64,000 bases of DNA, from NCBI GenBank assembly GCA_964036195.1, contig OZ038456.1:18166001-18230000 (forward strand). Reading direction: 5' to 3'. Position numbers and translations under genes: made by a program. The notes under the pieces were generated by a model. The model had not been told where the DNA came from, ran no database searches, and saw only the letters and a program-made list of their open reading frames with translations. Each line of letters opens with the position of its first letter. Positions within the stretch are counted from its first letter, which is position 1. Origin of the DNA: Sphaerolaimus hirsutus (taxonomy: Eukaryota > Nematoda > Chromadorea > Monhysterida > Sphaerolaimidae). Below are positions 3,479 to 56,000 of the stretch, in pieces.

Positions 3479-5080
3479 TTATTTGCACTTTTGTTTCATT
3501 GTTGCCACTGCATCCTCTTCGGTTTTGCCCCTGCGTGCTAATCCAGCCCGTATGCTCTCCACTCTTCCTGGTTGAAATTGCGTGGAGCTTGGGTTAACAT
3601 AGCACCTGGATGGGTCATGTGGCAGTGGTTCCCTGTGCAAGTAGTGTGTGCACCATGGCCCTCTGTGAATTTTGGGGTCAAACGTTGCCTTGACTTTGGC
3701 TTCACCGGCTTTCGCGCTTTGTGCCCTGTAATTTGAGTTCCAATTTGTGTGTCTGTCTTTCTGCTCTTCATGCTTCTGCACCCTGTTTTTCTGTATTTCG
3801 ATTCTGGCAGCCTCCATCATTGACACTGCTGTGTCTAGATCACATGACCTTTCCTGCCAGCGCTGCCTCCACGTGTACCAACATGATGAGGGAAGCAATT
3901 TTATGACTTCAATAAATAATTTATCTCCAATCATCCTTTCGCGATCTGTGTCCGACATCGTGTCACTGACGTGGTGGAAGGCGGCACTCAATTTGGTCTG
4001 CAGGCTCACTATTGAGTCACCTGGCTTGGCTTTCAGCTCATACCAGTCAGTGACCGAGTATAATCTGTGGTCTACTCGGTAAATGTGCATCAACCTGTCA
4101 ATGACAAACAAAGGGTCATGTCGGCGATCTGCACGTATCACTTGGTACCTTTCCTGCGCTTCCCCTGTCAGGCAGTGGGCAAAAACAAGTGTCCAGAACA
4201 TCTGCTGATGCGCATCTGGGACGCCAATCGCCTGTTGCGTGATTCCGTGTAGCCACCATTTAAATGGTCCTGTGGTTGCATTTGATTCTCCATCAAATTG
4301 TTGCTGTTTCTTTGCCGCCCCTGCTACATGCCCCGCGCCCATCTTGTCGCGTGCGGTAGTGAGCAAAGCTGCTTGCGAAAGAGACTGCCTGTGATCTGCA
4401 GGTGTCATTACAAACAACTCGATGTATTGGATCACTTGATTTAGCAGGGTGTCTTGCCGTAGCAGCGCCAGGCGGTCGTCTGTACTCAGTTTCCAGTAAT
4501 CTGTGTTTGCGTTGGTCTGAATTGCCGGCTTTATATCTGGCGGTGGGTTCTGAATGCCCGCTGATGACCCCTGTGCATGCATCAGCTGTGCAATATCAGC
4601 CTGTTGCTGCTTGATGTCTGCTTGTTGCTGTTGCAGCATGGATTGTTGCTGCTTCATGGTGCTTTGCACCAGCTGGATCAGTTCATCAACCCTATTTGCT
4701 GTCTCTGCCTCATCATCTTCTGGTTCTGTGGGGTCACCTGTACCTCCTGTGTCATCTGGGTCACCCCCATCAGGGTCGTCAATAACCAGTGTGTCGCTTG
4801 TTGCAAAGTACGCAGTGGCCATGCCTTGTAAAAGCTTTGCCAGGTTTTTTGTGGTCAATTCTGCGGGGTTTTTCACCTTTGGCCATGTAGATTGCCGTTT
4901 TTCCAGCAACTGAAATGCAATGAACACAAGTGCTGAGCGTTTTCTGCTCGCCAGCAAGTCTGTAATTTTTGCAGTAAACTCGTTACTTGTGAGCTGCATT
5001 TTCCCTGCCATTCTGCGTGATTTTTCACTATCGGGGCTACAAAAACTATTGTCGCTCATTGACGGCTTGACGCTCCACAA
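3479..5080 (-). CDS. Retroelement gag-like capsid protein
   Basis: A 533-codon open frame, the longest in the window. The N-terminal third contains an acidic stretch (about 95-120) and then a glutamine-rich coiled coil (about 130-165, repeats of KQQQADI). Residues about 250-440 resemble the helical retrotransposon gag domain (FKWWLHGITQQAI, VFAHCLTGEAQERY). Near 478-495 a CTHYLH...H...C pattern looks like a divergent zinc knuckle for RNA binding. The product would form the particle that packages element RNA. The start may be the first ATG (5080) or the MSDNSF methionine seven codons later. It ends in TAA and is followed in the same frame by the protease. Confidence 0.75.
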   Translation of the reverse strand: MWSVKPSMSDNSFCSPDSEKSRRMAGKMQLTSNEFTAKITDLLASRKRSALVFIAFQLLEKRQSTWPKVKNPAELTTKNLAKLLQGMATAYFATSDTLVIDDPDGGDPDDTGGTGDPTEPEDDEAETANRVDELIQLVQSTMKQQQSMLQQQQADIKQQQADIAQLMHAQGSSAGIQNPPPDIKPAIQTNANTDYWKLSTDDRLALLRQDTLLNQVIQYIELFVMTPADHRQSLSQAALLTTARDKMGAGHVAGAAKKQQQFDGESNATTGPFKWWLHGITQQAIGVPDAHQQMFWTLVFAHCLTGEAQERYQVIRADRRHDPLFVIDRLMHIYRVDHRLYSVTDWYELKAKPGDSIVSLQTKLSAAFHHVSDTMSDTDRERMIGDKLFIEVIKLLPSSCWYTWRQRWQERSCDLDTAVSMMEAARIEIQKNRVQKHEEQKDRHTNWNSNYRAQSAKAGEAKVKATFDPKIHRGPWCTHYLHREPLPHDPSRCYVNPSSTQFQPGRVESIRAGLARRGKTEEDAVATMKQKCK

Positions 5081-5487
5081 GCGTGCTTCTAGACTCGTGC
5101 TCAGGCGCCCTGAGCATGCACAGTAATGCCTTTAGCCGACTCTCAGCTGGTCACACCACTCTACATAAACTGCAATAATTTGTGTTGAACCCACGGCTCA
5201 ATGGGTGCACTCCACGAGTGCCACTTTTTTATACTCAGGCACCCTGAGTCTGCAACAGTACCGTTAGCCGACACTTGGCTGAGTGCACCACTCTGTGTAT
5301 GCTGCGTTTATCTGTGTTGAGTCCACGACTCAATGAATCACTCCACGAATGTCAGTCTACGTCCCGGGCACAGGCACCCTGAGCACTTGCAACAATACTT
5401 TTAGCCGACACTCAGCCAGGTGCGCCACCCTGTGTACGTTGCACGGGAGCAGTGGATTCGTCTGAAAAATTGATATATTTCCAGATA

Positions 5488-13037: not shown

Positions 13038-14084
13038 TACCGTATTACCTCGAATTACCCCCCTTGAATGACCACCCACTCGAAATACCCCCACCCAAAT
13101 TGAGTGTAAAGGGGATGTACATGGTCGGGCTGAAAAGTCTCCGGGCAGTGCTCGCCATTCGCGGTAGGGGTAAGCTACGGTCATAAAATTTTAACACGTT
13201 AATATTTCAGGTGTTTTGAGTTACCACCCAAAATTTCACCCCTCTAGCTCCACCCACTGCGGAACTGTGGGGGTCACAATTTCGGTCATTTTGTACTGAT
13301 GTACAAATGGTGCTCTAGCTCAACGCTGCTTTAAGTTGTGATCATGAAACTTTGGCTAGTGTAAGCCACCAGTGTTGGCAATGTGCTGATAGTATTCAAC
13401 ACTTTCATAATGTGTAGTGGACACATTACCTGTGTTCAACAGCAGTGAGTAGACTCCAAAGGGGGGCTATTATGAGAAGGAGAGGCAGAATGATGAATTT
13501 GGTAGTGAGAGTAGCGACAGTTATGGCAATATGGACTAGGCTTATGATATCATAGCTTATGTTGGTTAATGCTGGCACGTTGCCAACACAGGTGGGTTAC
13601 ATTATCCAAAGTTTCATGATCACAACTTAAAGCAGCGTTGAGCTAGAGCACCATTTGTACATCAGTACAAAATGACGGAAATTGTGACCCCCACAGTTCC
13701 GCAGTGGGTGGAGCTAGAAGGGTGAAATTTTGGGTGAAAACTCAAAACACTTGATATATCAACGTGTTAAAATATTTTGACCGTAGCTTACCCCTAGCGC
13801 GAATGGCGAGCACTGCCCGGGGACTTTTCAGCCCGACCATGTACATTACAAATACCCCAGGTTGTGATCTGTGTAATTCAGAACACCCGTTAGAACCATT
13901 GAGTTACACTTTGACAGAACTTATAAGTAATTGTATACATCTCTGTCGTTGTTACATTTTGGAGTAACTGGAATCTAAAAAAATTCTGTCAAAATATGAG
14001 ACCCCCTCGAATTAACCCCCCCCCCCTCAAATTTTGTTGGCGGAATAATAAACCCCCTGGTGGTATTTAGAGGAAAAAATGGTA
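13038..14084. mobile_element. CCGTATTTCC-type element interrupted by a hairpin element
   Basis: The outer parts (13038-13122 and 13839-14084) are the two halves of a CCGTATTTCC-family element, matching intact copies such as 6818-7276. The middle is a separate element (next entry). The right half, ending AATAATAAACCCCC...GGTA, runs without a break into duplication copy A, whereas in copy B the same stretch is truncated. Confidence 0.75.
13123..13838. mobile_element. Nested hAT-like hairpin element
   Basis: A 716-bp element with terminal inverted repeats GGTCGGGCTGAAAAGTC, flanked by an exact 8-bp duplication ATGTACAT (13115-13122 and 13839-13846). Arms pair over about 250 bp each, for example through GCTCTAGCTCAACGCTGC and its complement. 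Comparison with uninterrupted copies of the host element (GTACATGACAAATAC near 18208) shows the empty site. An 8-bp duplication fits hAT-type transposition. It is non-coding. Confidence 0.82.
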
Positions 14085-14091
14085 AACGTGG

Positions 14092-16645
14092 TCACGCACT
14101 GGTGTCCCTATTTGTCTTAAAAGTGCTAGCTTGCGTCTTCCCAGCGCCCCCAGTTACCATAGGCTGCACTTTGATCACATTCACACGGAACCTGTGAAGG
14201 CTCCTAAAAGCTTCAATCACCTTTTTCCGCACTATCGGATTGAAGCATAGAAAAATGTATGGATTCACTATGCTATTGATTATATTAAACAGATTTATCA
14301 GCCAATTAGCCCACATTTTATTCACGTGCACCAAAAAGAAAAACGGTCCCGTCGATAAGAGAAGGCCGCACCATATAAAAAAGCCCTGGGGGCACTCCCA
14401 GACCCTGTAAAAGATCCTGTAAAATGGTCAAGACCCTGTAGAATGCCATGTGTCATGTAAACGACCCTGTAAAATGTCATGTGTCATGTAAAAAACCCTG
14501 TAAAGTGTCAAATGTCATGTAAAAGACCCCGTAATGTGCCATGTGTATCCAAATCTTTTTTGTGTCCTCAGCTTATGTTGTATCCAAATATTATGTCAAA
14601 AAGTAAGATTTGGATACAAAAACAATATTTGGATACACTTGACACATTACATGGTCTTTTACATGGCATCTGACACTTTACAGGACCTTTTACATGACAC
14701 ATGACATTTTACAGTGTCTTTGACACTTTACAGGGTCTTTTACAGGGTCTGGGAGTGGCACCTGTGTCATCAATCTCATTTCCGTTTTGATCCTTTTTGC
14801 GTTAGCCACGGTGGAATTGCGTCGCTGCCAAGTGAGCACGAAAAACAGAATTATATAAATGACCAAAAGAGCGGCGGGGACTGCCTGGTGCTAGTCCCAA
14901 ACCCTGCAAAATGCCCTGTAAAATGTCAAAGGTCATGCAAAGTGTCAAAAGTCATGTAAAATGCCCTGCAAAATGGCACTTCGGTTGCCATTTTACAGGG
15001 CGTTTTCCATGACCTTTGACACTTCGCATGGCATTTTACAGGGCATTTTACAGTATCTGGGACTGCTCCCTGGTGCATCCAAATGTAGGATTGCCATAGA
15101 ATGTGGTTGTAATCTATGCATTGAAAGCCTATCATCAATGTTTCTGGGTCCAGGAACATGTCGCAGCCGATCACGAATGTGAACATTGCCAGGTAGAAAA
15201 TGCCTACCGTAAGACTTAGATACGCGAAAATGCGCACTTTTTTCTCGTTGGTGAATAACTGCCCTACGACGCTTTTGTACACGTTCGGAAAGATTCTTTC
15301 TGTGCAACCAAACAGTCGATTAAATCCTATGAAAAGTATCATCCATTCGATGTAATTGAAGCAAATTCCTTCTGTTTTCTGCAGGATTGAATGGGCCATT
15401 TCACCGTAAATTTTCTCACCGAAGGCAAAATTCAATGTGCCCGACTGTCCTTTTTGGAAAACCAGATTCATTGTTTTTAACATAAATAGATGTTAAACCG
15501 TATTTATGTTTACTCGAAAGTTACGCACACTCGATTACTGGGTAAATACGTTTACGTTTCTCCAAAAAATACCTGTACTAAAATTTACGCGTACTTTTTG
15601 AAAGTACGCAAGTACAGAAAATATATTGCAATCAGAAGAGTGCAATCAACTACTAAATACAGTAATGTGGCAATATGTTATTCAGAAATAGCATTGAAAA
15701 AAATCATCAATTTTTGAAAAATTTAATCAAATACCGTATTTCCTCGAAATACCCCCGGGGGGTTTATTTTTTCAGAGTGAGAATTTTGAGGGGGGGTTAA
15801 ACGAGGGGGGGGGGTATTTCGAGGGGGGGTTTATTATTTCGCCAGAAATTTTTTGAAATCCCAGTACTAAAATGTCGTCTGAAACGTACGCAGACGTCGA
15901 AAAATGCAACAAAAATCGCCATTTATAAGACTCTAAAGACATTTATAAGTGTGTAGATGTACAAACACTGTTCTCACATAACAGAGTCATCGTTTTTAAC
16001 GTGTGTTCTGCATTGTCGGGATGACAAACCGCAGCCTTTGTCATTTACGTTCTTTATACACTAAATTTGGGGGGGGTATTTCGAGGGGGGGTTTATAAGT
16101 TCATAGTGTCCATTTTGAGGGGGGTATTTCGAGGAAATACGGTACCTATAATCTCAGAAAATCTCTCAAGAATAAAATATTATTAAATCTCTCAAAAAAC
16201 CTGGAAGGATATAAATAAATCTGAGACTTTAAAATCTCCAAAAATCTCTCAAAAAGAAAATTTAATTACATCTCTAATGAAAATCGTGGAAAAATATAAA
16301 TCTCAGAAAACCTTATATTTTCTGAGATTTTTTAAATATAAATCTCGCAGAGATTTTTTCAATGCTATTCAGAAACAATGCATATGGCTGCCAAAAGTGC
16401 ATGGCGGACAGATTAAATTTTGCACCATAAAACGCCATCGGTGTAGCCACGAATAGATAATATGACAGCATGTATAGGTCTCCAAAAGCCAGTTTGATAG
16501 CCAATGTGTAAAAGCAATTGTGAAACACCTTTCTGTTCCTCACAATAACCACCACCACTGGGATGTATGGCAGTATGCCCAGCAAACATGTCAGGCCCCA
16601 CATTATTGCCCATAGTCTGCGCTGCTCATGTAAAATCCAATCCAT
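14092..16645 (-). CDS. 7TM chemoreceptor-like GPCR, copy A
   Basis: Four exons on the minus strand: 16426-16645, 15064-15449, 14762-14884, 14092-14385 (with stop). Phases agree and give 340 residues. TM1 about 11-35, TM2 46-68, TM3 100-120 ending in FNR (where DRY usually lies), TM4 145-169, TM5 204-222 (PAALLVIYIILFFVLTW), TM6 244-262, TM7 with VNPYIFLCFNPIVRKK near 283-298. The C-terminal tail is short and basic. The layout resembles rhodopsin-like or nematode Srx-type serpentine receptors; the exact family and ligand are unknown. Introns 2 and 3 are each entirely one introner-like element; intron 1 contains a CCGTATTTCC element. The intron 2 donor is uncertain (GCA|GTCCCAG proposed). The gene lies downstream of a Cys-loop channel gene on the same strand and has a duplicate at 28727-31307. 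Confidence 0.78.
14386..14761 (-). mobile_element. Introner-like element = intron 3 of 7TM gene A
   Basis: The 376-bp intron consists of the element plus a few bases. Read on the minus strand the exon ends ACACAG, the intron starts GTGCCACTCCCAGACC and ends GGTCTGGGAGTGCCCCCAG. The ends form an inverted repeat, and CAG stands on both sides, as if duplicated on insertion. The donor is a canonical GT and the acceptor AG. The interior is many repeats of TGTAAAATG / GACACATGACATTTTAC words. Confidence 0.75.
14885..15063 (-). mobile_element. Introner-like element = intron 2 of 7TM gene A
   Basis: A 179-bp intron formed by a shorter member of the same family, with ends GGGAGCAGTCCCAG and GGGACTAGCACCAG on the minus strand. 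The coding CAC CAG before it matches the CACCAG at its end. The donor is less clear than in intron 3: directly after CAG the sequence is GGAGCA, so I place the donor six bases on at GTCCCAG, which keeps the frame. Confidence 0.65.
15732..16144. mobile_element. CCGTATTTCC element in intron 1 of 7TM gene A
   Basis: A 413-bp copy with complete ends TACCGTATTTCC and GGAAATACGGTA, and G-rich blocks GGGGGGTTTATT inside. It is present at the same place in copy B (30370-30806), so it predates the duplication. Confidence 0.75.
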
Positions 16646-18825
16646 GTTTCTGTGAACAACTTTATTTGCGTTTATAGTGGGTGGGTTTATGTGACAAATT
16701 TTAAGTTTATAATACTATATTAATCACTGCAAGTCCAGTTTTGTTCTGGAGCCACTCCCAGATCCTGTTAAATGCCCTGTAGAATGTTAAATTTCATGCA
16801 ACGTGTCAAATGTTGTGTAAAATGTTTTGTAATTTTTTTGGACATTTTACAGTGCATTGTACATGACTTTTGGCACTTTGCACGACATTTTACATTTTAC
16901 AGTACTGCATAACTTCAGTCAAGAATAAATCGAAGTAAAACATCTTGCATATCATACTGATGCTACAAGAACAAACTGACAGACTTATTTGAAAAAGGTC
17001 ACGTTACCAATACCTAGATGCATGAAATGAACCTGTTTTTTACTTGTAAAAATGATGGGTAAATAATTATAGCCTTATCGGTAATTGTAATTTTGAGTTT
17101 CTCTATACCTCGCCACCGGACGTTGATATATCCCTCAATTATCTACAGCTTGCCTTGGTGAATTGTGATGAGCTTTTAGTTTTCTGAGCGAAACATTCCA
17201 TAATGACGTCATCGTAATAAATAAAAATATTTCAGGCAGAAACATGCCTAGGTATGTTGGTTTTACTCGGCTCCGTTTTTTCTTTTTTAAATATTTTCTT
17301 GTACAAGTGCATACAGTGCATCATATAGTGCATCAGGAGCCTGAGTCCTGACTAGGTCGACATAAGTATCTTTTGGCGCATACTATGAAATCCGTCTTTA
17401 AAAAGCATTAAAGAGTTCCTTAACTCTGCTGAAATTACAGCCCAGAACTACAGTTACAGACAATGATTACTTACAGACAAAAGACAACTTACAGATGACC
17501 TTTAATTAAATATAGACAACAGCAGAATTGCTATGCGCCACAAATTTTTATGCTGTAAAAACTAAAGAGATATGTTCTATTATAATAACAGTTAATCATG
17601 TACACCATACTGTCCATACTCCATGCTACCATACTGATTAGCGATGTAAAATTGCTATGGCATTTTTGTCAGGTGGCGTCAATGATTGCACCTTGCAAGT
17701 TTTGCCCTAATCACCCATTTGAATAGTGATTTTGTAAGTTCAAGGCAAATGAACAAGTGATTTTGAACGCCTGAAAAATGCTGCCAGTTCATTAATTGCT
17801 CATGAGTTTATGTGTCCATTGTTGAACTCAGCTATGCTGCCTCACAACTGTGCCAACTTCTAATCACAAAATGCCTCAGGTCAGAGACTAATGCCCAGGG
17901 TCAATAACAATAACAGCAAAAATTTCAATACCAATACTCACATCACAGTAGATTGAAAAACACTGCATCATGTGCAAATTTCCATTTAGGCATAGTCCTT
18001 ACATCAAAAAAGATGAGGTGTTTTGTTTGTTAGCAGTGCTGCACTAATTGACTTTTGATATACCGTATTTCCTCAAAAGACCCCCCCCCTCGAAATACAC
18101 CCCCCTCGTTTGACCCCCCCCTCGTTTGACCCCCCCCCTCTCGAGACCACTATGAAACAATCACCCCCCCCCTCGAAATACCCCCCCTCCAGATTGAGTG
18201 TAAAGAGAACGTACATGACAAATACTGCAGTATGTGTTCTGCGTAGTGCAGAACACACGTTAAAACAGTGTCGGAACCACGTTAGAACAATGTTTATACC
18301 ATCTACGTACTAATATTAGTCTACAGGAGTCTATACATGTCAGTTATTGATGCATTTTTCTACCCCAGCGCACATCACAAACAACGATTTTGTACTAGGA
18401 TTTTAAAAAATTTGCGAAATAATACCCCCCCTCGAAATACCTACCTAATTATGCATCAATGTTATGGAAAAAAAATGAAGTAGATTAAGAAACACTGCAT
18501 TATGTGTACAGTATACTCCAGTTACTTTACACCCTGCAGGCATGGTTCCCGCTGGAAGCGTGCCAACGATTTTTTTACGCATGCGATTTTCATAAAAAGT
18601 TGAGAAAAGTAATCTTTGTTATAATGCTAAAGGTTAACTTATTCACAACAACGATTTTTTTCATTTTTTATACAAAAATCGCATGCTTCATCCTCTTTGG
18701 CACGGTTCCAACGAGAGACATAAATGAGTGCGAGGGTAGAGTATCATGTCCGCCGAGTATAAATACTATTAACACATACAGTATTATAAACAGAGAAAAA
18801 GAGACCATAACAAAGGATCAAAACA
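16646..18825. other. Spacer between 7TM gene A and channel gene A
   Basis: No gene seen. It holds an introner-like element at about 16748-16912 (CCACTCCCAGATCCTG ... ACATTTTACAGT), a partial CCGTATTTCC element at 18061-18440, and at about 18512-18765 a stretch flanked by CTGCAGGCATGGTTCC and GGCACGGTTCCAACG that copy B lacks. The 7TM promoter must lie here or within the 5' part, but no core motif is convincing. Confidence 0.5.
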
Positions 18826-21800
18826 TCACTTTGGTGCACTGGCATACACGAAAAAAAGAAAAACATTGAGTGACTGTGCAATGATTAGGCAAATAATGTC
18901 AAGTTTGAAGCAGATCATGGCCCATTTTTGAATGCCTTCTTGCATGCTTATTTCCATGCCATTGACAATTTTTTTGATGCATGCTAGTTGATGTGCCATT
19001 TCATGCAGTGTATCAGTCTGTGAATTTAAATCAGTTTTGTTACTTTTTTGACACCTGTCCGATATTTAATTGTAGAGGGTAAATTTTTCTGATTGGGAGA
19101 ATATCCATGTTTGAGTGCACTATTGTCAAATTTGGATGGGAAAGTGCTTGATGCTTTAGGTAGGCTTAATATAATATATAATATTGACCATTTGTGGTAT
19201 TAAAATATTTTTGACAAAATATTGATATTGAAAAGTGATTTCAATGCAACGCTGCAGTAATAACCTGATTATTCCAACTGTTGAATGGTTGAACGTGATA
19301 ATTGAACTGACACAAATAAATTAGGATAAAATCAATTACAAGTGTATTACTGACCAAATGTTCATTGGCATTGACTGGATTATGATTAGTGATAGTTATC
19401 ATCTCCAGCGGACTGGTTTGAGTATACTCCTTTTGTTTACCCTTGGTGCTCCTGTTGTCTTCATTGGTGCTGAGCTGCACATTGATGAAATTTTTTTACA
19501 TATTTAAAGTATGCATACCTATCTTTTTGTACAGTAAAATGTTTTTGTCTACATGGGCATGAGCCATGCATTTTTGGCAGTGCATCTAGAAAACATGAAA
19601 GACACAAACTTACCCAGAAAACTTTTGTGATGAACCAAGGTACTGTATAACCAATTTTGTCCAGTGATTGCATGTACAAAAGAAATGTTGCAATGATTGT
19701 TGAAACACCACAGATATACATCTGCCAACACATGTAAAGCCCTAGGCACAACGTTTTTGTAAATTTGATTGATTTTGCAATTTACATGGTTCCAAAAAGT
19801 TGAAAAACATAGCATTTACCTAAATATGGTACCGCTGTTCCAACTTTGGGCATCGATGATGTAACTGTGATCAGCAAAAGACCATGTGCCAACATACCTG
19901 CCAGACCTATATGCACCTGCAAATATCCTAAACAGATACTGATTGATTTTTGAGATAGATTTTGTTTCTGGAATTTGAATTTCACCTTTTGAACTCTTAC
20001 AAGACTGCTCTCATCTGGTGTAAATAAGCCAGACATGAATTTCCTAAAATTTAAGGGTCTGGCATCCAATTCTTTCTTAATTCTGTCAATTGGAATTAGA
20101 ACATTTGTTTTCCCACTTTCCCAAAAAAATTATGAAAAATAATATGTGATGGCCAATTTCCACACTGATCTTGAAGATTGAAGTTTGAAAATGCCAGGTT
20201 GCATTTGTGCTACAGCAAAATCTGTGCTTCCACATTTGAATGTCATTTTAAAATTTATAATACAATTATGGCAATCTGAATGTAAATACATTGTGGAAGC
20301 ATGTGGATAAAATGGTGCAAAATCTGCATTCAAGTGCATGTGTGAGCAACCAAGTGTGGCCCACCATCACAATTCATAAATTATCACCCTCTATTGCAAA
20401 TATTTGCCTATGACTTTAAGCATCAGAATCAACCACAAAGCAGAAATATGGCATACTGATCAGCTTTGCCAAAAAGTATGAGTGTGGTAATAAGCATGTC
20501 TGGCATCATGATTATCATTATATAGTAGTGGGATTTTCTCTTGATTTTGAAGTACAGTTCAGCATTGTACCATGTTCCCAGGGTGTCAAATGATAACTGC
20601 ACTATTTTTGAACTTGTTTCCCCCAGAATCCATTCTAAAAAAGAGAACATATTTTTGTAATACTCAGACAGATTGCATGCAAAATTCAAACCTTGATTGG
20701 TATCTGCTCCATATGTCTTCTCAAATGTGGCATTTATTATTTGAAAAAGTGTTGCATTGAGTGTCCAACTGCCAAATGAGATTGTGCAGGTGTGCTGGTC
20801 ATATGGAAACATTTCCATCTGGCATTTAGATAATTGGGTCCATTTTTACAATCATCATACAGAACTTTAGTTACTGTAAGCTTTTTTCACCTAACCTGAA
20901 GTGTACACAGAAGCTTTACCCTTCCTTTTGTGCTTTCCAATACCCATCCATCATAGCTGATTTTGGCAATCATAGCAGATTCATCTATCATTACATGTGT
21001 TTCTATCCTGACATTAAATAATTTTTATATGTTATGTTTGATTGATTTTGATAGCCCCAAACATGTACATGGTCTATGCCATATACATCCCAGGAGTTAT
21101 ATATCCTAGAGTCCAGGGTAACATTCCAAAGTGAATCGCTCCTCCAGAGCAGGGTTGGATAAATCTCAGAAAAAAATCTGTTTATTTCAGTTCAACCATT
21201 GAGGCAATTCAGAAGTGTTGTGAATGCAATTTTCAGTGTGTTGTGCAGTTGTAATTGAGCCACTTTCCTCTATTATACAGCATAAATATAACACTCACAC
21301 ACACTCTCACACAAATTCATAATTGACATAGGTAGAAGCAAATTGACCATTGGTAGATTCATTGGAAAATGGTTTATTTTCAATGGATTGCCTCTAGCAA
21401 ATTGATTACAAATACAAGTCAGATCGATTTATTAAAAGATTGTGAACATTGTTTTGTGTGTCACAATTCAATGGTCATGCTATTTTGAAATATTGATTGA
21501 TTGTAGAAATATTGATTTTTAATTGGAAAAGCTGCTGCATTTGCACATCTCTATTTGCACTTTGGTTATACACCTGGACCTGACCCCAGATTTTATTAGG
21601 ACGGCATGCCCTGAAAGGCGAGTGCTGGATGGGTCAGGCAGTTTGAATTCTTATTGAATGCTTATTTGGATCCCACCGGCCATTCCTGACTTTCAAGGTC
21701 ATGACATTTTACATGGGATGGGACTGGCTCCGTGTGATTCTATTTACCACTACATATTTAGCATTTGTTTATAATTAACACAGTGACCTACGATTCATCA

Positions 21801-22525
21801 ATAACCACATCGGTTTGCCAAATGTTGTCTTTGATAGGTACATTCAATTCAGTTATGCCATTGTAATCAGCCGGGTCCCATTTTAAGCGATAATCTGTCC
21901 AGTGCTGAAATGGAACTGGTATTTGGTGTAAATGTCATATACAGATTGATGTTTTTACATTTGAAAATACTCACCAAATACACCCAGAGTATGACGTCAA
22001 CAGTTTCTTCTGCATCATTCTACAAAAAGTATAACAATGCATCAATGCGTCAATTGATACCACTCCCAGAACCTGTAAAAATCCCTGTAAAATGTCATGC
22101 AAAGTGTAAAAAGTGATGTAAAAATATCATTTGACATTTTACAGGGCGTTTTACAGGTCTGGGAGTGGCACACGGATAGACATTTTGGTGATGTGCCTTA
22201 AGGGTTCAAATGTGATATATATTATTTTAACTTACTGCATTTCTTCTAATTGTAGAGCGTCGTTCTATTTTTCCGTGATATCGAAAACTTGCCAAAACCT
22301 GCCGTTCTATGGGAGATGCCCTTCTATTAGAAGAAATGCGGTAATACAGACCACGTTGAGCAGTTTTCCCAGCATGACTACAATTTTCAATTTCAACGGA
22401 TTTTTTGCTGATGTAGGCGCCACGTTTTTGGTATAATTTGCCATTAAATCGTTGAATAATAAAATCCTGAAATGATCATCATTCATTTCATCTTGCGCAT
22501 GCGTCCCACATGTCAATGCGAGTGC
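18826..22525 (-). CDS. Cys-loop ligand-gated ion channel subunit, copy A
   Basis: Nine minus-strand exons: 22352-22525, 21975-22019, 21792-21904, 20896-21007, 20457-20818, 19820-19938, 19614-19741, 19355-19474, 18826-19017 (stop). About 454 residues, plus an unfound first exon with the signal-peptide start (exon 1 here begins ALALTCG, like a peptide end). Family marks: [17 protein letters not shown]-x-D-x-R-L-x-W in exon 3, NIWQTDVVI, and a Cys loop with exactly 13 residues between cysteines (C145 and C159, second half MFPYDQHTC). M1 [21 protein letters not shown]2 ending [15 protein letters not shown]3 [20 protein letters not shown], and M4 in the last exon. No vicinal cysteine pair in loop C and neither a GEK nor PAR motif before M2, so agonist and ion selectivity are unclear. 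The join of exons 5 and 6 is odd (see findings). Confidence 0.85.
22066..22170. mobile_element. Introner-like element in channel gene A intron 1
   Basis: About 105 bp with CACTCCCAGAACCTGTAAAA at one end and TTTTACAGGTCTGGGAGTGG at the other. It lies inside the 332-bp intron between exons 1 and 2 of the channel rather than filling it. The same copy is in duplication copy B (38205-38309). Confidence 0.7.
22233..22343. mobile_element. TACTGCATTTCTTCTAAT MITE in the same intron
   Basis: A 111-bp inverted repeat: TACTGCATTTCTTCTAATTG at the left and TAGAAGAAATGCGGTA at the right. Its right end lies eight bases inside the intron from the donor of exon 1, so the first intron of the channel is made almost wholly of two small elements. 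A related fragment is near 12590. Confidence 0.65.
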
Positions 22526-22603
22526 CTGTAAATGTGTAAATTCATGGTATTTTCTTTTTTTAGTTCGGGTACCTAGGTGAATTCCGGTTTACCGGGACCA
22601 TGG

Positions 22604-23362
22604 GCCAGTTCCGCAAGTGGACAAGTTAAGAGTTAAAAGTTAAGAGTTGAGTAAAATGACAAATGGCGAGTTAAGAGTAAAGTTAAAGTTTAAGAGAAAA
22701 GTTAAAGTTAAAGAGAAAAGTTAAAATTTAAGAGTTGAGTTAAAAGTTGAGTTAAATGTTAAGAGTTGAGTTAAAGGTTGAGTTAAATGTTAAGAGTTGA
22801 GTTAAAGGTTAAAAGTTGAGTTAAGAGTTGAGTTAAAGGTTAAAAGGTGAATTAAAAGTTGATTTAAAAGACAAATGGGGAAAAATGTAATAAAAAATAA
22901 TAATAAAATTAAAAAAATGAATTTGGATCTTGAGAGTGTTAGATTTGAAACAACGTTCCGCGATTTTTTCTTTTTTTAGCGATAATTTTTTTGGATACAT
23001 TATTTTCAAATGACGTGCATACAACATTGGCACCATGCCAGCGAACAGCTGTATACATACCAATTTCACATTTTTATTTTTTTAATAATTTTTACCATCA
23101 TTTTCTACTTGTCTCTGTACTCTCAACTCTTAACTCAACTCTTAACTCAACTTTTAACCTTTAACTCAACTCTTAACATTTAACTCAACCTTTAACTCAA
23201 CTCTTAACATTTAACTCAACTTTTAACTTTTCTCTTAAATTTTCACTTTTCTCTTAAACTTTAACTTTTCTCTTAAACTTTAACTTTACTCTTAACTCGC
23301 CATTTGTCATTTTACTCAACTCTTAACTTTTAACTCTTAACTTGTCCACTTGCGGAACTGGC
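22604..23362. mobile_element. Foldback element, 759 bp, upstream of channel A
   Basis: The ends are GCCAGTTCCGCAAGTGGACA and its complement. The arms (about 22604-22868 and 23102-23362) are repeats of AAGAGTTGAGTTAAA on one side and TTTAACTCAACTCTTAA on the other, so a transcript would form a very long hairpin. The loop (about 22870-23100) holds non-repetitive AT-rich sequence. The copy in duplication B is 38743-39501. A related sequence is at about 46790-46930. Confidence 0.75.
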
Positions 23363-23379
23363 ACCAGGTTTGTGAAAAG

Positions 23380-23659
23380 CGGAGTTGTTAAAAGTGAAAG
23401 TTAAAAGTTAAAAGTAAAAGTTAAAAGTGTCAAAACTCTTTTCAAAGTAAAAGTAAACGTAAAGTATTTATTTTTACTCACCCCCTCAGTACAGAAAACG
23501 TAAAGTACATTCTTTTTTTTTACTTTGACTCATGAGTAAACATGAGTAAAAATACTTTTCTCCCCAGAAAACGTAAAAGTGAGTAGTTTTTTAGTTTTTT
23601 TTATTTTTGTACATTTTTTCACCATTCTAACCTTTCACCATTCTAACCTCTAACCAAAT
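23380..23659. mobile_element. Truncated hAT-like element at the duplication edge
   Basis: Begins GTGAAAAG then CGGAGTTGTTAAAAG exactly as at 39511, but stops at CCAAAT (23659), where homology to copy B ends. The complete version with both ends is at 39519-40069. This breakpoint marks the novel side of the duplication. Confidence 0.75.
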
Positions 23660-24529
23660 CGGGTGGGCGCGCCAGCGCCATCCCTCGCTGCCGAGGGAGG
23701 GCGCAAGCGACCGATTACAGGTACTTTTCCCCCGTGGACAACTTGCCCCCGGAGTGTGTTGTATTAGCGTTTTGTCCGTGTTGCATTAGCGTTTTGTCGT
23801 GTTGCATTACCGTTTTGTCGTGTTCCATTAGCGTTATGTCCGCACGGACATAACGCTAATGCATCACACCACGGGGGGAAGAAGTCCATGGGGGGAAACG
23901 TGAAGTAAACGCAAGCGACCCACCCATAATATGGTCGGACACACCAAAATGCGGAAATCGCAAATTTAAAATCGCAAGCACTTCGGAACGCAATGCGCTA
24001 GTGCAGAACCGATTGTACCATTAAAAAGCCCGTGTCGAAAAGTACCACCATGCAAATTTTCAGATCCAACGGTTGAGTTCGAAGGAAGTTATTACGGATT
24101 TTCTTTTTCAAGTAGTGTTGTTGTTGTTCTTGTTGTTCTTCTTGTTCTCCCGACAATCTTCAAACTGCAATAACTTCCTTGAAACACGACCGATTTTCAT
24201 GGTTGATGGCTCATATGAAAGAGCATATGATGCCATTTCTTATTTTCGGGAATTTTTTTCACAGGCTCCGCCCACTTTGGGACGGTATCTGTTTGAAATT
24301 TTCAAACCTCAATAAATTTAAAATTTGAATACAAATGCAGCAATACAAAAAATTTGTTGATGTGCGCCATGACTAGAGCTTTCAAATGAGCCAATTTTTG
24401 GCGATTTTGGTTGAGATTTACAAAAGTTATTCAAGTTTGCTTGTTTTGTGTAAAATGCGCAAACATGCCTGAACTACTGCTTAATGTGATACTGAGCATG
24501 TGACCTTGCATGGTGATTACTATCAGGTC
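23660..24529. other. Joint region between duplication copies, no gene seen
   Basis: Unique to this side of the joint. It contains repeats of GTTGCATTAGCGTTTTGTCG near 23760-23830 and an inverted match around GGACATAACGCTAATGC. An 80-codon frame at 24073-24315 has a leucine-rich start, but no family is recognised and I do not call it. Confidence 0.45.
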
Positions 24530-26815
24530 ATAAATGTCTAGTGGTTAATGTCAAGTCAAATGTCAAGCTATAAATGTCAAGTCAAATGTCAAGTGATAAT
24601 GTCAGGCCAAATATCAAGTCATAAATGTCAAGTGATAGATGTCAAGTGATAAAATATTAAGTGATAAAATATCAAGTCAAATATCAAGTGATAAATGTCA
24701 AGTGGTAGATATCAAGTGAAATGTCAAGTGAAAAATGTCAAGTGATATATGCCAAGTGATAAATGTCAAGTGATAAATTTCAAGTGAAATGTCAAGTTAA
24801 ATGTCAAGTGATGAATGTCAAGACAAATGTCAATTGATAAATGTCAATTGATAAATGTCAAGCAATAAATGTCAGGCCAAATGTCAAGTGATAAATGTCA
24901 AGTGATAGATGTCAAGTGATAAAATATTAAGTGATAAAATATCAAGTCAAATATCAAGTGATAAATGTCAAGTGGTACATATCAAGTGAAATGTCAAGTG
25001 AAAAATGTCAAGTGATAGATATCAAGTGAAATGTCAAGTGAAAAATGTCAAGTGATAGATGTCATGTGATAAATGTCAAGTGATAAATTTCAAGTGAAAT
25101 GTCAAGTTAAATGTCAAGTGATGAATGTCAAGACAAATGTCAAATGATAAATGTCAATTGATAAATGTCAACCAATAAATGTCAAGCAATAAATGTCAGG
25201 CCAAATGTCAAGTGATAAATGTCAAGTGATAGATGTCAAGTGATAAAATATCAAGTGATAAAATATCAAGTCAAATATCAAGTGATAAATGTCAAGTGGT
25301 AGATATCAAGTGAAATGTCAAGTGATAGATGTCAAGTAATAAATGTCAAGTGATAAATTTCAAGTGAAATTTCAAGTTTAATGTCAAGTGATGAATGTCA
25401 AGACAAATGTCAATTGATAAATGTCAATTGATAAATGTCAAGTGATAAATGTCAAGTGATAGATGTCAAGTTATAAAATATCAAGTGATATAATATCAAG
25501 TCAAATATCAAGTGATAACTTTCAAGTCAAATGCCAACTGATAAATTTCAACTGAAATGTCAACTTTAATGTCAAGTGATAAATGTCATGTCAAATGTCA
25601 AGTCAAATGTCAAGTGATAAATTTCAAGTGAAATTTCAAGTTTAATGTCAAGTGATGAATGTCAAGACAAATGTCAATTGATAAATGTCAATTGATAAAT
25701 GTCAAGTGATAAATATCAAGTGATAAATGTCAAGTGATACATGTCAAGTGATAAAATATAAAGTGATAAAATATCAAGTCAAATATCAAGTGATAACTGT
25801 CAAGTGGTAGATATCAAGTGAAATGTCAAGTGATAGATGTCAAGTGATAAATGTCAAGTGATAAATTTCAAGTGAAATTTCAAGTTTAATGTCAAGTGAT
25901 GAATGTCAAGACAAATGTCAATTGATAAATGTCAATTGATAAATGTCAAGTGATAAATATCAAGTGATAAATGTCAAGTGATAGATGTCAAGTTATAAAA
26001 TATCAAGTGATATAATATCAAGTCAAATATCAAGTGATAACTTTCAAGTCAAATGCCAACTGATAAATTTCAACTGAAATGTCAACTTTAATGTCAAGTG
26101 ATAAATGTCATGTCAAATGTCAAGTCAAATGTCAAGTGATAAATTTCAAGTGAAATGTCAAGTAATAAATTTCAAGTGAAATGTCAAGTCAAATGTCAAG
26201 TTAGATGTCAAGCTTAATGTCAAGTGATGAATGTCATGTCAAATGTCAAGTTTAACGTAAAGTAATAAATTTCAAGTGAACTGTCAAGTTTAATGTCAAG
26301 TGATAAATGTCATGTCAAATGTGAAGTCAAATGTGAAGTTGTAAATGTCAAGTCTAAAGTAAAGTAAAGTCAAATGTCAAGTGATAGATGTCAAGTGATA
26401 AATGTCAAGTGATAATTTTCAAGTGAAATGTCAAGTTAAATGTCAAGTGATGAATGTGAAGTGATAAATATCAAGTGATAAATGTCAAGTGATAGATGTC
26501 AAGTTATAAAAAATCAAGTGATAAAATATCAAGTCAAATATCAAGTGATAACTTTCAAATCAAATGTCAACTGATAAATCTCAAGTGAAATGTCAAGTTT
26601 AATGTCAAGTGATCAAGGTCATGTCAAATGTCAAGTGACAAATTTCATGTCAAGTCAAATAACAAGTCATATGTCAAGTCAAATTTCAAGTGGTAAATGT
26701 CAAGTTAAATGTCAAGTGATCAAATATCAAGTCAAATGTCAAGTTATAAATGTCAAGTCTCAAGTCAAGTCAAATGGCAAGTAAAAAGAGAAGTGAAATG
26801 GCAAGTAAAAAATTA
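24530..26815. repeat. Satellite of TGTCAAGTGATAAA-type units, about 2.3 kb
   Basis: Tandem array of 10-14-bp units, mostly TGTCAAGTGATAAA, with variants AAATGTCAAGTG, ATATCAAGTCAA and GATAGATGTCAAG. Longer blocks of units recur (for example the run starting GTCAGGCCAAATGTCAAG at about 24600, 24870 and 25195), which shows higher-order repeat structure. No gene. Similar GTCAAGTGATA words appear singly near 62080. Confidence 0.9.
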
Positions 26816-28057: not shown

Positions 28058-28685
28058 GCTGCAGCCCCCCCCCCCGCCCCCCTGGATACGGCCCTGGATT
28101 CCACATAAAAAATCATCAATTCCACATAAAGGTGCTAGTTCATACATGAGGTTGATGCATTCCACACAAAAAAATTACTAATGCTGGGCGCTGGCACGCG
28201 TACGAGAAACCCACACATGGAAACAGATGCCGCGTATCAAGTGACGTACATGTGAGTAAACAAAAATGACTCCAGTGACTGCACTCACATAAGCGGCTTA
28301 TCAAAGTAATTAGGAATATTTCCTGATTCTAAAGGCCACTTTCTAAATGTTTCGCCGCACGGTGAAAAACCTTTTTATGTCACTTTTCTGTCATCCAACA
28401 GTGTTTTGAGACCTTTATGAACAACTGTGAATGCCAGAACAGTGACGAAAATCTCTATCCCTAGACCCCAATCCTGATCCCGGAAAAATGCCAATCCCGA
28501 TCCTGATCCCAATCCCGTGACCCTGATCCCGAAATTTCAAAATACCAATCCCGATCCCGAAATCTCAAAAAGTGAATCCCGATCCCGAAAAGTCCATCCC
28601 GTTTGAACCCTACTCTCCAATAGTGCGAACCCTAAAAATGTGCTGAAAACAATATCGGCTGTCGTATTATTAGTGAATTTACGGT
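28058..28685. other. Spacer after gap; CCGATCCCGA repeats
   Basis: Begins with C tracts. From about 28460 to 28610 there are repeats of ATCCCGATCCCGAAA and variants, also seen singly near 10130, 50210 and 51420. The last 70 bp match one end of the TAATAATGCGAC element (44290), joined directly to a truncated CCGTATTTCC element at 28683, the left edge of copy B. Confidence 0.5.
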
Positions 28686-28726
28686 AAACCCCCTGGTAGT
28701 ATTTAGAGGAAATATGGCAAACGTGG

Positions 28727-31307
28727 TCACGCACTGGTGTCCCTATTTGTCTTAAAAGTGCTAGCTTGCGTCTTTCCAGCGCCCAAAGTTACCATAGGCT
28801 GCACTCTGATCACATTCACACGGAACCTAGGGATGCTCCTAATAGCTTCAATAACTTTTTTCCGCACTATCGGATTGAAGCATAGAAAAATGTATGGATT
28901 CACTATGCTGTTGATTATATTAAACAGATTTATCAGCCAATTAGCCCACATTTTATTCACGTGCACCAAAAAGAAAAACGGTCCCGTCGATAAAAGAAGG
29001 CCGCACCATATAAAAAAGCCCTGGGGGCACTCCCTGAGCCTGTAAAAGATCCTGTAAAATGGTCAAGACCCTGTAGAATGCCATGTGTCATGTAAACGAC
29101 CCTGTAAAATGTCATGTTTCATGTAAAAAACCCTGTAAAGTGTCTAATGTCATGTAAAAGACCCTGTAATGTGCCATGTGTATCCAAATCTTTTTTGTGT
29201 CCTCAGCTTATGTTGTTGTACCCAAATATTATGTCAAAAAGTAAGATTTGGATACAAAAACAATGTTTGGATACACTTGACACATTACATGGTCTTTTAC
29301 ATGGCATCTGACACTTTACAGGACCTTTTACATGACACATGACATTTTACAGTGTCTTTGACACTTTACAGGGTCTTTTACAGGGTCTGGGAGTGGCACC
29401 TGTGTCATCAATCTCATTTCCGTTTTGATCCTTTTTGCGTTAGCCACGGTGGAATTGCGTCGTTGCCAAGTGAGCACGAAAAACAGAATTATATAAATGA
29501 CCAAAATAGTGGCGGGGACTGCCTGGTGCTAGTCCCAAACCCTGCAAAATGCCCTGTAAAATGTCAAAGGTCATGCAAAGTGTCAAAAGTCATATAAAAT
29601 GCCCTGCAAAATGGCACTTCGGTTGCCATTTTACAGGGCGTTTTCCATGACCTTTGACACTTCGCATGGCATTTTACAGGGCATTTTACAGTATCTGGGA
29701 CTGCTCCCTGGTGCATCCAAATGTAGGATTGCCATAGAAGGTGGTTGTAATCTATGCATTGAAAGCCTATCATCAGAGTTTCTGGGTCCAGGAACATGTC
29801 GCAGCCGATCACGAATGTGAACATTGCCAGGTAGAAAATGCCTACCGTAAGACTTAGATACGCGAAAATGCGCACTTTTTTCTCGTTGGTGAATAACTGC
29901 CCTACGACGCTTTTGTACACGTTCGGAAAGATTCTTTCTGTGCAACCGAACAGTCGATTAAATCCTATGAAAAGTATCATCCATTCGATGTAATTGAAGC
30001 AAATTCCTTCTGTTTTCTGCAGGATTGAATGGGTCATTTCACCGTAAATTTTCTCACCGAAGGCAAAATTCAATGTGCCCGACTGTCCTTTTTGGAAAAC
30101 CAGATTCATTGTTTTTAACATAAATAGATGTTAAACCGTATTTATGTTTACTCGAAAGTTACGCACACTCGATTACTGGGTAAATACGTTTACGTTTCTC
30201 CAAAAAATACCTGTACTAAAATTTACGCGTACTTTTTGAAAGTACGCAAGTACAGAAAATAGATTGCAATCAGAAGAGTGCAATCAACTACTAAATACAG
30301 TAATGTGGCAATATGTTATTCAGAAATAGCATTGAAAAAAATCATCAATTTTTGAAAAATTTAATCAAATACCATATTTCCTCGAAATACCCCCGGGGGG
30401 GTTTATTTTTTCAGGGTGAGAATTTTGAGGGGGGGTTAAACGAGGGGGGGGGTATTTCGAGGGGGGGTTTATTATTTCGCCAGAAATTTTTTGAAATCCC
30501 AGTACTAAAATGTCGTCTGAAACGTACGCAGACGTCGAAAAATGCAACAAAAATCGCCATTTATAAGACTCTAAAGACATTTATAAGTGTGTAGATGTAC
30601 AAACACTGTTCTCACATAACAGAGTCATCGTTTTTAACGTGTGTTCTGCATTGTCGGGATGACAAACCGCAGCCTTTGTCATTTACGTTCTTTATACACT
30701 AAATTTGGGGGGGTATTTCGAGGGGGGGGGGGGGGTTTATAAGTTCATAGTGTCCATTTTGAGGGGGGTATTTCGAGGGGGGGGGGTATTTCGAGGAAAT
30801 ACGGTACCTATAATCTCAGAAAATCTCTCAAGAATAAAAAATTATTAAATCTCTCAAAAAACCTGGAAGGATATAAATAAATCTGAGACTTTAAAATCTC
30901 CAAAAATCTCTCAAAAAGAAAATTTAATTACATCTCTAATGAAAATCGTGGAAAAATATAAACCTCAGAAAACCTTATATTTTCTGAGATTTTTAAAATA
31001 TAAATCTCGCAGAGATTTTTTCAATGCTATTCAGAAACAATGCATATGGATGCCAAAAGTGCATGACGGACAGATTAAATTTTGCACCATAGAACGCCAT
31101 CGGTGTAGCCACGAATAGATAATATGACAGCATGTATAGGTCTCCAAAAGCCAGTTTGATAGCCAATGTGTAAAAGCCATTGTGAAACACCTTTCTGTTC
31201 CTCACAATAACCACCACCACTGGGATGTATGGCAGTATGCCCAGCAAACATGTCAGGCCCCATATTATTGCCCATAGTCTGCGCTGCTCATGTAAAATCC
31301 AATCCAT
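28727..31307 (-). CDS. 7TM chemoreceptor-like GPCR, copy B
   Basis: Same four-exon model as copy A: 31088-31307, 29702-30087, 29400-29522, 28727-29020 (stop), 340 residues, no disruption. By eye about eleven residues differ from copy A: two in exon 1 (including FHNG for FHNC), two in exon 2, two in TM5 (PATILVIY) and five in the C-terminal tail (IRSIPRF for FRSLHRF, R for K, L for G). Exon 4 shows more amino-acid-changing than silent differences. TM7 keeps VNPYIFLCFNPIVRKK. Both introner-like introns are retained at the same positions. The downstream target and ligand are unknown. Confidence 0.78.
29021..29399 (-). mobile_element. Introner-like element = intron 3 of 7TM gene B
   Basis: Counterpart of 14386-14761, with the same donor CAG|GTGCCACTCCC and acceptor GCCCCCAG. 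Minor length differences in the interior (an extra GTT near 29214). Confidence 0.75.
29523..29701 (-). mobile_element. Introner-like element = intron 2 of 7TM gene B
   Basis: Counterpart of 14885-15063, same 179-bp length and same uncertain donor, so the donor peculiarity predates the duplication. Confidence 0.65.
30370..30806. mobile_element. CCGTATTTCC element in intron 1 of 7TM gene B
   Basis: Counterpart of 15732-16144 with longer G tracts near 30720-30790, the main length difference between copies here. Confidence 0.72.
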
Positions 31308-32131
31308 GTTTCTGTGAACAACTTTATTTGCGTTTATAGTTCGTGGGTTTATGTGACAAATTTTAAGTTTATAATACTATATTAATAACTGCCAGTCCAG
31401 TTTTGTTCTGGAGCCACTCCCAGATCCGGTTAAATGCCCTGTAGAATGTTAAATTTCATGCAATGTGTCAAATGTCGTGTAAAATGTTTTGTAATTTTTT
31501 TACATTTTACAGTGCATTGTACATGACTTTTGGCACTTTGCACGACATTTTACATTTTACAGTACTGCATCACTTCAGTCAAGAATAAATCGAAGTAAAA
31601 CATCTTGCATATCATACTGATACTACAAGAACAAACTGAAAGACTAATTTGAAAAAGGTCACGTTACCAATACCCAGATGCATGAAATGAACCTGTTTTA
31701 TACCTGTAAAAATGATGGGTTATTGTAGCCCTATCGGTAATTGTAATTTTGAGTTTCTCTATACCTCGCCATCGGACGTTGATCTATCCCTCAATCAATT
31801 ATCTACAGCTTGGCTTGGTGAATTGTGATGAGCTTTTAGTTTTCTGAGCGAAACATTCCATCATGACATCATAATAATAAATAAAAATATTTCAGGCAGA
31901 AACATGCCTAGGTATGTTGGTTCTACTCGGCTACGTTTTTTCTTTTTTAAATATTTTCTTGTACAAGTGCATACATAAGTATCCTGCATAAGACATAAGG
32001 CATAACTTTTTTTCTAAAACAGCCAAAACAGAACGTGGGTGTCAAATCCACGCTTAACTCTATTTTGCTGGATTTGGCGCTTGTGCACTTTTGTAGTAAA
32101 GTCCCTAAGTAGCTAGTGCATCAGGAGTAGT

Positions 32132-34075: not shown

Positions 34076-34385
34076 GCTCACATCACAGTAGATTGAAAAA
34101 CACTGCATCATGTGCAAATTTCCATTTAGGCATAGTCCTTACATCAAAAAAGGTTAGGTGTTTTGTTTGTTGGCAGTGTTGCACTAATTGACTTTTGATA
34201 TATACAGGAGTACAGGACCTGCTCAAATCACACAAGTTTTTCAGTATACCTACCTAATTATGCATCAATGTTATGGAAAAAAATGAAGTAGATTAAGAAA
34301 CACTGCATTATGTGTACAGTACTTACTATTAACACATACAGTATTATTAACAGAGAAAGAGAGACCATAACAAAGGATCAAAACA

Positions 34386-39501: not shown

Positions 39502-39518
39502 ACCAGGTTTGTGAAAAG

Positions 39519-53015: not shown

Positions 53016-56000
53016 TTAATCAATTCTGTGCCGGGTCACAATGTATTTTTTCCACGGCTTGGCTGGCGCCAAAAATATTCTGCGACCATCTGCGAAAAAT
53101 GGCACTACTCCCTTGTATTGGTGCCTTGTAATGCCTTCCTGCGTTTGAAATCCTCTTTTTTGTGTAATGTCTGATTTTGAGCGTAGTCAAACAGTTTTTC
53201 ACCTAGGGGTAGGGTGTCAACTTTCCGTTCTCGCTTCCCGGCGGAAATTTTTTTTACCCTTTCCGGCAGCTGAAATTTGTACACTTTCCGTTTTCGGGCA
53301 ACCAATTTTTTTACCCATTCCTTTCCGTTTTCTGTAAAAAAATGTTGACACCCTAATTTCACCTAACATTTGAAACGTTTAATTACTCATATACTCACCA
53401 AAACATTGTTAATCAGACCAAAACTTTGCATAATTTTTCTCAATTGGTTCATGTTGGTGTAATTGATCCTGATATCCATGTTAGAAGTTCGGTTTTTCAC
53501 AGTTTGCTGCAGACTTTTTAGGTTGGCTGCGGATACCAAAAATGTATTCACTCACGCATTGACACATTTGAGTGTGAATATAGCTAAATCAAAAGTTTTT
53601 TTGTGTGACGTTGTAGAAATGTGCGGCATTCCTAATCAATCAATAACAACGAATAATAACGAAATCAATTGGAGGTAATACGGTTTCCCAGCGATGTTCC
53701 CTCTGGTGCCACTCCCGGACCCTGTAACATGTCAAATGTCATGCAAAGTGTCAAAAGTTGTGGAAAATGCCCTGCAAAATGGCAACCGAGTTGCCCTTTT
53801 GCAGGGCATTTTCCATGACTTTTGACATTTTACAGGGTCTGGAAGTGCCCTGTGATCTAGCTGGGGTAAACATCGTTGGCACACCCTTCAGGCACGGCTT
53901 ACCAGTGGGTAAAACAGTGGCATTTCTCACTCTGTTGTCAAAATCTGCATCGTATCGATCACCAGTGAGATATTGCAGCAGCTGTGTGTTTCCATCTATA
54001 GGTGTTTGAGGCAATTTCTGGGCCATTTCAACGTGTTGCAAGTATTTCCCGAAGTGCAGCCCACTGGGATATGGGTGTTTTTTTCGATGGGATGGATGGA
54101 TAATTTTATCTATTTTGGAATAGAAAAATGTTTAATTTGTAAAAACTGCCAGTCAATTGAAACATATTGTTCATCATGTTTCTTTCACTGGAAACTAAAA
54201 TGGTTGCATGGTTTTGTCAGGTATGGAAAGTTTCCCACTTTCTTTCCACAGGAAAAGCTGGAGGAATTATCATGGGTTTGGGGGGTTCAATATATATTTT
54301 GGGGGGTAGAAGACAAAAATTGAGAAAAAAGTGCTGTAAAATATCGGTAAAAATCTATTTCAGATGTGAGAATTGGCAAAGAAGGTTTTTCCTTGGTAAA
54401 ATTGGCAAAAATGCCAACACAGTATGATTTAGGCGTTAGTTGAGTTAAAATATAGGTAGAGTTGGCAATTTATGGGGTATACCGTATAGAAGTTTGATTG
54501 AAGGTTAACCCACTACCCCTGGAATAGTGATGTAAAAGCGCCATATGCTATGGCGCTTGGCGCCAAAGTCCTGGCGCTTTTTACATCACTACCCTGGAAA
54601 CACTGAAACCACCCCAAACCCACCCACTAGCACCATTGGTCTGGTGCTTTCCAAACATAACTCTACTGATCTCCGGTCGATAACAGTATCTGTTTTGTCT
54701 CTGTCTTTCGATACCCATCCACCCATCCCAGTCGCACATGCGCGTGGGCATTCGCGCGCCAATGTCGTTTTTTGGCGAGTGGAAAATGTGCTTGGCAAAG
54801 AGCCAACCCCAGCCTGGAGTGTGGGATGTTTTTGCACGTGAAAGGAGTGATATGTTTGGGGGTTAATAACCCAAACCAATTAATTTTGCTCAGGATTTTT
54901 TCCTTTTCTCGAAGGAACCATGGTTCAGACCCTGGTTCGACGATCAGGGTTGAATTTGTTTGAATACAGTTGGGTGCTGGACCTGGGGTAGACTGTAAAA
55001 GTTGCAAAAAAATTACGTGGCAGGCCACTAGAGAATCACCATGTTTAGTTTCAGCAATTTCAGAAAGACACTTGGGACTTGAGTCACATCCAGTTAATTT
55101 AAGTTCAGTAATTAAGGCTTAAACATCCATCCAACCCACCCAATCTAAAGTCACTTCTCCACACTTTATGCATATTTTCCTCGAATGGAGTACTTTGATA
55201 TCTGCCTTTTCTGCCATGAACATTCATTCCTGACACGCAATAAGTCCTATTGTCATTTTGCATTATTTTAATGCCAAATAGCATGTAGTTGAGAAAATCT
55301 GGTGATATAATTAGGTCATCTGAGTGGAGGGGTATTGTTTGAATTGGCAGTTTTCCAAATTGTGAAAGTTTGTTTGTCGTCATGAGAACTGGGGACTTGT
55401 TTTCATGAACATTCTGGTATCGATGTCCATAAAAAGGTCCATTTATGCCTAAGATAAGATTGTCTAGTTTGTTATTTTAGGTGGCGCTGTCTGTTTTTCT
55501 TTGCCGTTGGCGCCAGCGCCATGGCGCTTTTATGTCACTATTGTTTAGTGTTTGACCTCTGTAACTGGAGTATTTGACAGTTGTGACTGGCGCTGGCGCC
55601 TATACGAAAAGCACCACGTATTGTGGCATTGCAATCAGCACATTTCCAGTTCGTACTAGTTATGGAAAAGAGCCATGGCGCTTGGCGCTGGGGTTTTGGA
55701 AAAGCGCCCTGGCGATTTTGGCGCTTGGTGTAAAATTCCTGGCGCTTTTTCATCACTATTTCTTACCTTCCAAAATCACAATGTAGTCATACTTCATCTC
55801 ATCGAAAATCTTTGTCAGTGCATATTTATAGTGTGTACCCACTGTGCAATAGCCCTTCACCGAATTTTTCTGCCTGTTAGCCCAAATCCTATCAGCTTTT
55901 GTTCTGCTGTCATTGTAAAAGTTTAATCTGTCATCCACCTGTGTTTTTTACAAAAGTGTTGGGGTGTTTCGATTTTCATTGAAAATTGGGAAAAATTGCT

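Follow-up and report, generated by a model that had tools for sequence, protein, structure and literature searches.

Palindromic elements inserted at CWG targets as candidate introners in an animal, probably nematode, genome

The 64,000-nt stretch of DNA analysed here (the window) contains a 7TM gene, two neighbouring introns of which harbour members of one family of short inverted-repeat elements. Did these elements land in introns, or did they become introns on landing? On the sequence evidence the latter is very probably the case: the elements would be introners, i.e. short non-autonomous DNA transposons turned into introns on insertion, and they appear to constitute a new family of introners, with NuwaI-like CWG targets, in an animal that is probably a nematode. 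Introners are a leading candidate source of new introns. Thousands of end copies are present in this 348-Mb animal genome, and the strand of insertion, together with the choice of CAG or CTG, would predict which insertions can be spliced. Such a rule would make intron birth in an animal countable and testable.

Two elements in a 7TM gene

The two ends of the element are unlike. The D end, GTGCCACTCCC, starts with GT, and the A end finishes in CCCC (read inward, GGGGCACTCCC). An element is termed D or anti-D by its orientation relative to the gene, and both orientations occur in the 7TM gene, the features of which are as follows.

14092..14385, minus strand: last 7TM exon, 3′ of intron 3; frame open to the stop, with the Srv domain reaching into the exon
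14386..14388, minus strand: 3′ duplicate of the target site, reading CAG in the sense direction; candidate source of the acceptor AG
14389..14761, minus strand: body of intron 3, a complete 373-bp palindromic element with its D end 5′ (GTGCCACTCCCAGACC) and its A end 3′ (GGTCTGGGAGTGCCCC)
14762..14764, minus strand: 5′ duplicate of the target site, CAG, closing the upstream exon
14765..14884, minus strand: exon separating both element introns (it runs on to 14762); frame AVPAALLVIY...RLMTQ, Srv match
14888..15069, minus strand: body of intron 2, the second element, 182 bp, anti-D relative to the gene; donor away from the element end
14885-14887 and 15070-15072, minus strand: target-site duplication of intron 2, CAG on the sense strand
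15073..15484, minus strand: exon 5′ of intron 2, 5′ limit approximate; frame ...QSYIWMHQ
16380..16660, minus strand: initial coding exon of the 7TM gene, with approximate limits; open frame, Srx match

Intron 3 reads CAG|GTGCCACTCCC...GGGAGTGCCCC CAG| (in short, CAG|GTGCC...GCCCC CAG|). When the flanking exons are joined, a Pfam Srv chemoreceptor domain spans the join, and retention of the element in mRNA would introduce 6 in-frame stops. The Pfam Srx match corresponds to residues 20-94 of the hand-joined 7TM protein, inside the first coding exon; relatives of that protein at E<=0.001 were not found. The Srx and Srv domains point to a nematode as host. The predicted minimum-energy fold of the 373-bp element as RNA is one long hairpin (-209 kcal/mol, z -20) in which the first four bases (GUGC) and the last four (CCCC) are unpaired.

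The 5′ end of the intron 2 element reads CAG|GGAGCA. With no GT at the element end, an exact end-to-end GT-AG intron is ruled out there; the in-frame donor options are GCA|GTCCCA at 15063 (the end coordinate given in the preliminary description), which adds 6 nt, and ACT|GTAAAA, which adds 18 nt. A preliminary description had both introns derived from one element family with ends coincident with the splice sites: the common derivation stands for both, the coincidence of ends for intron 3 and not for intron 2.

Elsewhere in the window, a different foldback element occupies 13115-13846 (a long inverted repeat with 287-bp arms, 92%), and 3479-5131 on the minus strand is a long open frame resembling, by eye, retroelement gag.

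Duplicated and unpaired copies in the window

Matches to the 16-bp end number 12 in the window at up to 3 mismatches, whereas 100 shuffles averaged 0.21 and never exceeded 2. Self-comparison of the window revealed that 14049-17315 recurs at 28685-31975 with 96.7% identity, both elements being present in both copies. The further features are these.

28685..31975, minus strand: second, tandem copy of the 7TM gene, including its two element introns (29024-29399, 29526-29707), 96.7% self-match
53706..53851, plus strand: third complete element, near the MGAT1-like gene, flanks CTG/GTG; a candidate intron at most

The four introns with coincident ends that had been counted as separate cases are thus two, copied by tandem duplication, and four independent introns are ruled out. 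The family had also been credited with introns in the MGAT1-like gene. Its GNT-I domain is indeed present (Pfam, 55105-55476, minus strand); the element has unlike flanks, and the open frame next to 53706-53851 does not match Pfam, so that an exon pair is not established there.

A second part of the tandem duplication links 18764-23659 with 34324-39796 (98%); the former contains cys-loop ligand-gated channel exons (Neur_chan_LBD match) and the same open frame is in the latter. At 24513-26829 there is a tandem-repeat array of about 2.3 kb with roughly 75-84% self-similarity at many offsets.

Abundance, ends and target of the family

A genome-wide search with the 16-bp end covered 348.5 Mb in 762 contigs. 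At up to 2 mismatches it gave 15,766 matches (7907 + 7859), as against 81 (34 + 47) for the reversed pattern. Complete copies with both ends numbered 73, from 76 fetched loci plus the window, and omission of two in the window's tandem copy and two of the L037/L038 family left 69 non-redundant copies; the sample is not random, since an exact D end on a single contig was the criterion for fetching loci. The elements are palindromic and MITE-like, with a median length of 181 bp. T is at D position 2 in 100% of the 68 profiled copies, which partly reflects the choice and orientation of the copies.

The same triplet is on both sides in 38 of the 69 copies (CAG in 24, CTG in 14), where about 0.03 would be expected from the background frequencies of 1.47% and 1.39%. 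This is a 3-bp CWG target-site duplication, and the suggestion that a duplicated CAG could have supplied the acceptor is upheld to the extent that CAG is a target duplication of the family. The flanks of the other 31 copies are unlike, including 6 CTG/CAG and 2 CAG/CTG. On the D side the target triplet has C in 94%, A or T in 93% and G in 99% of 68 copies. G+C is 52% in the flanks of the 38 copies versus 42% in the L031-L050 stretches.

A younger-looking subfamily with GTGGCARTCCCAAGCCC ends is represented by L042, L076@1160, L011@273 and L013@1824, copies of which are 94.6-97.4% identical. On contig C4, 881758-942421 has at least 6 A ends with CTG, all on one strand and about 8-15 kb apart, possibly tandemly arrayed genes that share an element.

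At least 163 genome matches to the Harbinger-type DDE_Tnp_4 family were found. No DDE_Tnp_4 transposase copy was linked to element ends, and a search of the fetched element loci with a piece of the L077 transposase gave no significant match. The transposase gene's own intron was considered as the source of the element because transposase matches spanned some 190 extra bases; in L077 they form a pair of short segments, judged by eye to be GT-AG, that do not resemble the element, and this candidate was rejected. The same gene, a single one inspected by eye, points to GT-AG as the form of ordinary introns in this genome. The D end may be derived from a GGGG-type end by change to GT.

From insertion to intron

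The element would insert at CWG, duplicating those 3 bp, with transposition probably catalysed by a Harbinger-type (NuwaI-like) enzyme. The D end, with its GT start, would carry the 5′ splice site. The A end lacks a terminal AG, and the 3′ splice site would come from the CAG target copy. As the D end starts with GT, a CAG target on the D strand gives GT...AG and an unchanged mRNA: where the coding strand is the D strand, excision restores the exon exactly, and the same would be expected of splicing in the cell. With a CTG target there would initially be no AG, and a T to A change in the A-end copy would make one, a putative repair. In an anti-D insertion, which has no GT at its end, a GT inside the arm would be used and codons added. 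The introns would have been gained here rather than lost elsewhere.

The coding fit was examined by removal of the element and one copy of the duplication, joining of the flanks, translation and scanning against Pfam; this test was not blind, the first peptide sets having been picked by eye. A domain, from one of 10 Pfam families, crosses the join in 12 of 35 D-strand peptides.

Cullin: L069
Bestrophin: L049
Lipase: L076@427
Carnitine acyltransferase: L030
Chondroitin GalNAc transferase (CHGN): L014@1500 and L014@2544
GT11: L035@1333 and L035@4047
PAN: L018
COMM: L043
Mak10: L034@1039
Srv 7TM: window, 14388

Ten of the 12 crossing domains reach the curated cut-off, COMM exactly so, with L018 (PAN) and L035@4047 just below it. 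Among the remaining 23 D-strand peptides, in which no Pfam domain lies over the join, are L068, where a cullin match begins at the join, and L036, with sub-threshold PLC-Y and C2 matches, one per side. In the anti-D orientation, with window intron 2 kept separate, 1 of 24 peptides has a domain across the join (L067 cullin, by 8 residues); a weak match in L019 (E 0.048, below cut-off) stops short of it. Exclusive of the window, the comparison is 11/34 for D versus 1/24 for anti-D (Fisher p 0.0096). The introner proposal of the preliminary description is borne out at this level: in several conserved genes unrelated to one another, copies fit precisely between the coding sequences.

Alignment to PDB sequences is gapless at the join in all five cases: cullin-1 (L069), bestrophin (L049), gastric lipase (L076, where one residue is gapped three positions ahead of the join), chondroitin synthase (L014@2544, with a two-residue gap some ten residues past it) and carnitine octanoyltransferase (L030). 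The COMM peptide (L043) had no PDB match. A codon-usage test, in which strand and frame agree in 15 of 55 unverified copies versus 9.2 expected, lends weak support.

Introns of unrelated genes resemble one another. The window Srv intron and the GT11 intron of L035@1333 are 78.2% identical over 371 of 373 bp, the carnitine intron of L030 and the CHGN intron of L014@2544 80.6% end to end, and the COMM intron of L043 and that of L014@2544 93.5% over 138 bp. The L043 copy is also 93.7% identical, at full length, to the L037 copy, which is in an open frame with no Pfam match. For L014@1500 and L018 there was no similar partner among the 12 introns at 60% coverage.

CAG, CTG and the acceptor

Each of the 17 examined copies with a putative coding frame would introduce 1-8 in-frame stops if retained. 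Zero-change GT-AG removal fits eight AG cases (L069, L076, L014@1500, L030, L018, L043, the window and L036) plus L034. Five D coding joins (L014@2544, L035@1333, L035@4047, L049 and L068) read CTG or TTG at the position that requires AG; therefore TG or another site would be used there, or the gene is broken. In L049 an AG nine bases upstream is usable and adds three codons. For the other four, either the in-frame AG options add or change 12 nt net or more, or no such option was detected.

If the two target copies stayed alike, the CAG fractions at D and A ends would be equal. Genome-wide, the D end has CAG 754 and CTG 631; inclusion of the CAGTCCC variant brings D-end CTG to 722. At the A end GGGAG is with CAG in 690 and CTG in 389, and GGGAC with CAG in 989 and CTG in 732. 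The A-end CAG fraction, 60.0% (1679/2800), exceeds that of the D end, 54.4% (754/1385; p 0.0007), where the D side is incomplete in that the 754 leave out the CAGTCCC variant, CAG+GTGCCAGTCCCAGACC. This excess therefore fits T to A repair. One caveat is that variant and triplet are associated at the A end (p 0.0007 genome-wide, p 0.014 in the local sample); the D/A shift does not reach significance in that sample (20:10 versus 36:34, p 0.19). On contig C1, 44 exact-ended pairs comprise 27 CTG/CTG, 9 CAG/CAG, 7 CTG/CAG and 1 CAG/CTG, the CAG classes being undercounted because the list lacks those CAG copies whose D end is CAGTCCC.

It is possible, if doubtful, that splice-site maturation is under way: insertion would be nearly blind to CAG versus CTG, D-strand insertions at CTG would persist through host tolerance of GT...TG (or weak) splicing for a while, and selection would then fix the T to A change at the A end to yield a complete GT-AG intron. 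Were this so, new, intermediate and finished introns would be present together in one genome.

Other origins for the introns

MITEs in introns are common, and ordinary MITEs may have landed in old introns, their ends meeting the splice sites by chance or through later trimming. The lack of a domain across the join in 23 of 35 D and 23 of 24 anti-D peptides is what this would predict. It is nevertheless very unlikely, given the 12 copies in which the exon edge is the target-site copy itself with a protein domain running through, joins in which no residual sequence separates the element from the coding frame, and the five PDB alignments without a gap at the join. An RNA route of spread, the reverse splicing that has been suggested for introner-like elements of fungi, hardly comes into consideration. 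The CTG/CAG copies do resemble an intron plus its own CAG inserted after CTG (7 versus 1 for the reverse among the 44 C1 pairs, with an incomplete CAG list), but the CTG/CTG and CAG/CAG duplications and the inverted repeats indicate DNA transposition.

Recent insertions could instead mostly disrupt genes, many coding copies then being broken, unspliced alleles. The five D coding joins without AG at the end are as this would have them, and the assembly may represent a single haplotype. Against it are the bias of D over anti-D, the zero-change GT-AG removal in the AG cases and the flanks still conserved at CHGN and GT11 (two copies each) and at the cullin locus (three), and it is considered improbable. 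Conversion of the element to an intron on insertion is the reading retained.

Relation to known systems

Henriet and colleagues reportedly found in 2019 that the chordate Fritillaria borealis has MITE-derived non-canonical introns, some with unusual borders. Both cases involve an animal and transposon-derived introns; here the coding-joined copies with AG fit GT-AG. Use of TG as a 3′ splice site is described, in the part of PMC2374985 consulted, for human U2 introns as alternative sites; such sites would fit the CTG copies, where TG use is conjectural. The literature search, including the part of PMC9169325 consulted, returned no nematode introners.

In the sections consulted of the account of DNA-transposon introners by Gozashti et al. 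2022 (PMC9860276), only two animal groups are reported to have them. The elements described there are likewise non-autonomous, with inverted repeats, a short duplication and a bias to GC-rich targets, and the type of its Fig. 2C also carries the 5′ site and co-opts the 3′ site from the insertion site. The present element differs in being palindromic throughout, in that CAG/CTG strand symmetry decides whether there is an AG, and in its probably nematode host. The NuwaI group of PHIS (PIF/Harbinger-related) transposons has CWG duplication and a terminal inverted repeat usually starting GGG, according to the part of PMC4482050 consulted, which as far as examined gives no account of intron formation. 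A DDE transposase and a Myb/SANT ORF sharing the same TIRs also mark the group; DDE_Tnp_4 genes are abundant in this genome, none of them linked to the present ends. CWG is duplicated here too, and the A end read inward, GGGGCACTCCC, starts with GGG (GGGG in most copies); unlike in NuwaI, the D end starts with GTG and the copies lack the length to encode a transposase.
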